This document shows positions 1 through 280 of a stretch of DNA of 64,000 nt, piece by piece. This stretch comes from Acidimicrobiales bacterium. Its GTDB lineage: Bacteria > Actinomycetota > Acidimicrobiia > Acidimicrobiales > Aldehydirespiratoraceae. Below the pieces are notes generated by a model. It worked only from the letters and a program-made list of their open reading frames with translations, did no database searches and was not told the origin of the DNA. Both the position numbers and the translations under genes were made by a program. Within the stretch, counting starts at the first letter, position 1. Each line of letters opens with the position of its first letter. The DNA is taken from positions 62,001 through 126,000 of the forward strand of contig JAQWLJ010000033.1 of the NCBI GenBank assembly GCA_029247365.1, in the 5' to 3' direction.

Positions 1-98
1 AGTCGGTTGTCCGGCCAGGTGCGATCGAGGAGTTCCACAGCCGGGTAGGGCCGGTACTTCTCGAACGGCATTGCGCTGTTGGAAGGCGCTGGCGTCAT
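1..98 (-). CDS. leuA: 2-isopropylmalate synthase, N-terminal part (runs off window start)
   Basis: Reverse strand from 98 reads MTPAPSNSAMPFEKYRPYPAVELLDRTWPDNR, the conserved LeuA N-terminus (KYRPF..V.L.DRTWP.NR). Not in the supplied ORF track. Confidence 0.9.
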   Translation of the reverse strand, partial: MTPAPSNSAMPFEKYRPYPAVELLDRTWPDNR

Positions 99-108
99 GG
101 ATCTCTCC

Positions 109-159
109 CTCGGGGGGTTGGCTGGCAAAAGGGTACTGAAAAGCGCAGAACCCCCCGAG
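109..159 (-). promoter_or_regulatory. leuA attenuator/sequestor hairpin
   Basis: Perfect 11-bp inverted repeat CTCGGGGGGTT (RNA 5' arm, 159-149) / AACCCCCCGAG (119-109), immediately overlapping the GAGGGAGAG Shine-Dalgarno of leuA. Confidence 0.7.
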
Positions 160-180
160 CCACGAGGGCACGAGGGGTTT

Positions 181-206
181 GGCGGGCGCCGTTATGGGCG
201 CTCGCC
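181..206 (-). promoter_or_regulatory. Hairpin following the leader peptide
   Basis: GGCGAGCGCC / GGCGCCCGCC arms (one mismatch) with 6-nt loop; the stem begins at the leuL stop codon. Confidence 0.5.
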
Positions 207-244
207 TACACGAGAAGAAGCAGGAACGAACGATGGTGCTCCAC
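206..244 (-). CDS. leuL: Leucine leader peptide MEHHRSFLLLLV (leuA attenuator peptide)
   Basis: GTG GAG CAC CAT CGT TCG TTC CTG CTT CTT CTC GTG TAG: four consecutive Leu codons just before the stop, about 110 nt upstream of leuA. Confidence 0.85.
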   Translation of the reverse strand: MEHHRSFLLLLV

Positions 245-252
245 GAGGTAAC

Positions 253-280
253 ACGCTAATCCCACCCTGGCGATTGTCAA
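253..280 (-). promoter_or_regulatory. Sigma70-like promoter for leuL-leuA
   Basis: Reverse strand TTGACA (280-275), 16-nt spacer, TAGCGT (258-253); leuL start codon 8 nt downstream. Confidence 0.75.

Follow-up and report, generated by a model that had tools for sequence, protein, structure and literature searches.

The window, the 64,000-nucleotide stretch of DNA analysed here, opens within leuA on the minus strand; the encoded protein matches TIGR00970 at 800 bits and NF002991 at 850 bits. Judged by its named LeuA relatives, the window genome groups with MAGs of the Acidimicrobiaceae/Acidimicrobiales. The leuA ATG lies at 98-96, 107 nt 3' of the stop codon of a 12-codon open reading frame (ORF) at 244-206. 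On the same strand this ORF is preceded by TTGACA (280-275), a spacer of 16 nt, TAGCGT (258-253) and a further 8 nt (252-245), and its codons are GTG GAG CAC CAT CGT TCG TTC CTG CTT CTT CTC GTG TAG. A run of four consecutive Leu codons has a probability of ~9e-5 at a given site, with Leu making up 9.7% of codons in the long ORFs of the window. The sequence-only reading had proposed this promoter and ORF on the minus strand, and the string is present base for base. Its interpretation as a leader peptide is also supported, but was incomplete, as two hairpins that separate the leader from leuA were missed. The features of the region are as follows.

1 to 98, minus strand: 5' end of leuA (2-isopropylmalate synthase), 572 codons (G000:C40), extending beyond the window
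103 to 111, minus strand: purine-rich region GAGGGAGAG, candidate leuA ribosome-binding site, from the sequence
139 to 148, minus strand: U-tract CTGCGCTTTT, interrupted, 3' of the terminator hairpin, from the sequence
149 to 179, minus strand: predicted terminator hairpin AACCCCTCGTGCC...GGCTCGGGGGGTT, from folding and covariation in 42, 87 and 20 sequences
181 to 206, minus strand: hairpin 1, GGCGAGCGCC / GGCGCCCGCC, from folding and covariation in 42, 87 and 20 sequences
206 to 244, minus strand: leader peptide ORF MEHHRSFLLLLV, GTG start, 12 codons, TAG stop, from the sequence and 45/49 leuA genes, with no Shine-Dalgarno signal
212 to 223, minus strand: putative control codons CTG CTT CTT CTC (four Leu), codons -5 to -2 from the stop, from synonymous variation with Leu kept and identity that tracks the downstream gene
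about 246-244, minus strand: predicted +1, from the promoter position
253 to 258, minus strand: -10 hexamer TAGCGT (TANNNT), 8 nt before the start codon, from the sequence and the over-represented 7-8 nt spacing in relatives
275 to 280, minus strand: -35 hexamer TTGACA, from the sequence and enrichment of T/TTG at -38 to -35 from the start codons of 97 leaders

Conservation of the leucine codon run

We picked leuA by its protein in the window genome and 60 relatives, and read the upstream DNA for 49 of them (this genome and 48 relatives). The Leu run is present upstream of 45 of these 49 protein-selected genes, and the leader ends one codon after the run. The sequence-only reading had staked its proposal on conservation of the run in relatives, which this count bears out. 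Among 86 leaders of leuA and leuS, codons -2, -3 and -4 are Leu in 86/86, 84/86 and 84/86 cases, with four to five different Leu codons in use; this larger set comes from a model that contains the Leu run, and 45/49 is the unbiased count. At the Leu positions C and T are constant at codon positions 1 and 2, while all four bases occur at position 3, as selection on the amino acid predicts.

At leuA of two order-level relatives (L005 and L035) the scaffold is absent, and another short ORF (MSFLLDLRLLSPAA, VRIELLALRLMHPAS) overlaps a GC-rich hairpin; these ORFs possibly represent a different leader type. Both genomes of genus g4 in the same family (L044 and L047) lack the leader at leuA, where it has apparently been lost.

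Two covarying hairpins between the leader and leuA

Hairpin 1 takes its first base, a G, from the UAG stop codon, and its stem carries one A-C mismatch in the window genome. Both hairpins covary. The MAFFT alignment of 42 sequences contains 33 double-changed cells against 6.4 in shuffles, with 9 of the 16 pairs of the two hairpins changed on both sides. The excess is seen again with 87 sequences (141 double-changed cells against 37 in shuffles) and with 20 sequences from other loci, mostly ilvB and leuB (47 against 13.5). The hairpin at 179-149, which is conserved, shows compensatory changes and has a U-rich tail, is a predicted intrinsic terminator; order-level relatives have better U-tracts at the corresponding place.

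Six relatives (L009, L020, L022, L023, L026 and L028) have an extra small hairpin, CGTGC-TTTT-N-GCACG, around the U-tract, which is absent from the window genome. The minimum free energy fold of the whole leader pairs the 3' arm of the terminator with CCCCCCGAG before leuA: this element (109-117, minus strand), situated ahead of the leuA ribosome-binding site, is able to pair with the arm CTCGGGGGG (151-159). Inspection by eye showed the pairing only for the window genome and the two relatives closest to it (L010, in part, and L011), and because of this limited occurrence we rejected it as a general mechanism.

A probable leaderless start

The position of the promoter was examined in 97 non-redundant leaders, whose start codons were picked without reference to it. 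TANNNT occurs exactly 7 nt before the start codon in 28 of the 97 and 8 nt before it in 13, where 0.72 would be expected at each spacing. No excess of Shine-Dalgarno sequences was found before these 97 starts; pairing with the anti-Shine-Dalgarno sequence is -3.0 in both the real and the shuffled sequences, compared with -5.8 for the main genes. Since throughout the class the -10 element keeps a distance of 7-8 nt from the start codon, and there is no Shine-Dalgarno excess, the leader is very probably translated from a leaderless mRNA, and the suggestion of a leaderless transcript in the sequence-only reading gains class-wide support, the transcription start itself being a prediction. The predicted 5' end would fall at the start codon or within about two bases of it.

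Sibling leaders with exchanged codons

The same genome carries related leaders at other branched-chain genes, which the sequence-only reading of a leucine leader, though supported, had missed. The operon leuB-ilvE-cimA, headed by leuB, is preceded by a leader (L255 from 365; G000:C44:34664) that ends ATC ATC ATC ATT TCG TAG; after these four Ile codons come a hairpin that starts from the stop codon and then a terminator. The leader before ilvB (L216 about 1313-1360; G000:C43, ilvB at 139936) ends CTC GTA GGA GTA ATC AGC TAG, again with a hairpin from the stop codon, followed by the terminator GACCTCCCAGCCGGGAGGTCGTTTGTGTTTT.

To escape the bias of a model containing the Leu run we repeated the search with protein-selected genes; for ilvB and leuB a leader was accepted with at least three Ile, Leu or Val codons out of four, and their identity was left free. 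A short ORF with branched-chain codons before its stop and a hairpin directly after it precedes 27 of 31 ilvB genes of the window genome and its relatives, and 23 of 30 leuB genes. The control codons of these protein-selected sets comprise 175 Leu, 1 Val and 1 Ile at leuA, 20 Leu, 58 Val and 10 Ile at ilvB, and 1 Leu, 17 Val and 62 Ile at leuB (chi-square 390 for codon identity against gene, uncorrected for kinship). They also lean towards uncommon codons: CTT makes up 12% of Leu codons, and the prevailing codon in the ilvB leaders is GTA, which accounts for 4% of Val codons. Because codon identity tracks the downstream gene both in the same genome and in relatives, we regard it as the best evidence that the control codons would act as the sensor. 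We take leuB-ilvE-cimA to be the citramalate route to isoleucine, and the four Ile codons before it suggest that this operon is marked as that route and is under isoleucine control.

Distribution of the element

A covariance model, R1, was built from the 42-sequence leuA alignment. In the window genome it scores the element at 91 bits, with the next match at 16.6, and it has matches in at least 118 of 198 genomes of the class and at least 57 of 298 genomes of a phylum sample that includes the class. R1 did not recover the ilvB sibling in the window genome, so these counts are lower bounds. Outside the training set its leuA matches are biased towards the Leu run, and it is therefore the protein-selected sets that carry the argument. 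Twenty further matches are second copies within a genome and lie before ilvB, leuB, leuA of the TIGR00973 type, cimA and leuS. Among the families of Rfam 15, searched at both thresholds, none scored above gathering in the element; the best was gyrA, at 19.9 bits on the other strand (gathering score 45). The leuA leader appears as a putative attenuator that is conserved across the class and whose scaffold is absent from Rfam.

In other classes of the phylum, R1 picks out four loci (L091, L095, L100 and L128) that have leaders with Leu codons and the same layout of hairpin and terminator before leuS, the leucyl-tRNA synthetase gene.

Proposed mechanism and alternatives

We consider it likely that the leuA leader is a ribosome-mediated transcription attenuator, because the coding run, both hairpins, the geometry of promoter and start, and the gene-matched codons are all supported by comparative sequence; the transcription start, the termination and the response to leucine are what we infer from them. 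Transcription would start at the GTG or within about two bases of it, and the leader would be translated from this leaderless end, with the run of four Leu codons near the end of the ORF gauging charged leucyl-tRNA. When leucine is ample the ribosome would leave at the UAG, hairpin 1 and then the terminator would fold, and transcription would end ahead of leuA. Under leucine shortage the ribosome would wait in the last codons and mask the 5' arm of hairpin 1, whose first base belongs to the stop codon. This would leave the 3' arm (GGYGC) free, and it may then capture the terminator's 5' arm (GYGCC) and allow transcription into leuA.

The last of these steps is tentative. The GGYGC:GYGCC helix can pair in 86% of cells and its covariation is no better than that of shuffles (218/500), and we treat it as a candidate antiterminator only. 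A scan of all column pairs returned, besides the two hairpins, a GGCGC:GTGCC helix that does not covary and a pairing of the Leu run with a G-run. Pairing of the Leu run with the 3' arm of the terminator fits 92% of cells with zero double changes, and was rejected; by eye it is absent from the ilvB and leuB leaders, and for that reason it seems to be a side effect of CU-rich Leu codons facing a G-rich arm. When static folds were computed for a ribosome moved codon by codon along the leader, the terminator was dominant at every position (P about 0.93), and hairpin 1 opened only with the ribosome at the last control codons or the stop. The switch step may possibly lie in a kinetic preference for an early antiterminator, or in coupling between ribosome and polymerase.

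A further reading, which we hold to be rather unlikely, is that the class has a modular leaderless scaffold whose control codons are exchanged from operon to operon, with hairpin 1 starting inside the stop codon, and which switches through the position of the ribosome at the stop codon or through ribosome-polymerase coupling, without a conventional antiterminator helix.

More generally, a stalled ribosome could act without an alternative fold on the terminator, by coupling to RNA polymerase, by protecting the RNA, or through Rho or leuA translation. This is consistent with the missing covarying antiterminator, with a terminator that is favoured at all modelled ribosome positions, and with the near-fixed distance (2-4 nt) at which hairpin 1 abuts the stop codon. 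However, the intrinsic terminator hairpin is kept with compensatory changes and a U-rich tail, and the comparable ilvBNC leaders of Corynebacterium use a choice between terminator and antiterminator (PMC11857589); we judge this alternative to be improbable beside attenuation by a terminator.

The nearest named thing is the LEU element, described upstream of leuA in Actinobacteria by Seliverstov et al. 2005 (PMC1262725). Both have a Leu-rich leader peptide upstream of leuA. The LEU element has a base stem that joins the Leu run to the Shine-Dalgarno region of leuA, has a pseudoknot, and lacks a typical terminator (PMC1262725), and control would act through a regulatory protein or translation initiation. 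That the present leader is such an element draws on the shared gene and Leu run (PMC1262725), and on a possible duplex in the window (-9.5 kcal/mol) between the Leu run and the purine-rich region ahead of leuA. In 81 leuA leaders, however, the Leu run pairs with the ribosome-binding region of its own gene (-7.1) no more strongly than with those of other genomes (-7.8; permutation p 1.0). Since this pairing is not conserved, our leader does not fit the element as described. It differs further in that a single codon separates the run from the stop, with a hairpin and a conserved predicted intrinsic terminator downstream. In Frankia and the other actinomycete-type genomes examined, the leuA leader is built on another scaffold, in which the Leu run lies inside the ORF and is followed by SCRGEGL-like codons and a CCGCGGCGAGG helix, without a U-tract. 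Identity with the LEU element is thus very improbable.

Weakest of all is the notion that the short ORF is a chance frame and the hairpins only terminate transcription from the upstream hydrolase gene (540-1421): although short GC-rich ORFs are common and that gene has the same orientation, its probability is close to nil given Leu identity kept with synonymous change over the class, a promoter at fixed spacing between the hydrolase gene and the leader, and gene-matched codons in the sibling leaders.

Relation to described leaders

Streptomyces lividans has the leaderless Leu leaders leuL1, before leuA, and leuL2, before leuS (PMC8079986), which the sequence-only reading had missed. They resemble the attenuator proposed here in being short, leaderless and Leu-rich, and a hairpin and a stretch of U lie 3' of leuL2; leuL1, in contrast, has no typical terminator, continues from the Leu run into SCRGEGL before the stop, and has other hairpin sequences (PMC8079986). 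In Corynebacterium, attenuation by the ilvBNC attenuator, or ilvB-II motif, has been shown by reporters and mutations (PMC10272879, PMC11857589), and the C. diphtheriae ilvB leader is leaderless (PMC5784534). There too a leaderless peptide rich in branched-chain codons is followed by a first hairpin and then a terminator. The Corynebacterium leader has an identified antiterminator that overlaps the terminator, and its upstream ORF spans the first hairpin (PMC10272879, PMC11857589). Here, by contrast, the ORF ends where hairpin 1 begins and the antiterminator is only a candidate.

The C. glutamicum ilvBNC leader peptide was reportedly found by Morbach et al. in 2000 to be formed without a ribosome-binding site. 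Mycobacteria are likewise said, in work of Canestrari et al. from 2020, to have polycysteine leaderless short ORFs; these would be similar in that codons of a leaderless short ORF sense the amino acid that the genes behind it produce, and different in concerning cysteine and other genes. No account of such leaders in the present bacterial class was found in the literature searched. Switches of this type are well known, but the version found here, like its siblings with isoleucine and valine codons, appears to be undescribed in the class.

Our analysis broadens the range of leader-peptide attenuation, here with leaders that are apparently leaderless, to include a largely uncultured class of actinobacteria. 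Closely similar scaffolds, whose codons are Leu, Ile or mixed depending on the downstream gene, amount to natural codon-swap evidence, and they yield a functional prediction, namely that leuB-ilvE-cimA serves as a citramalate isoleucine route under isoleucine control. Standard annotation passes over peptides this short and Rfam has no family for them, so a covariance model would annotate many regulatory regions that are at present unlabelled.
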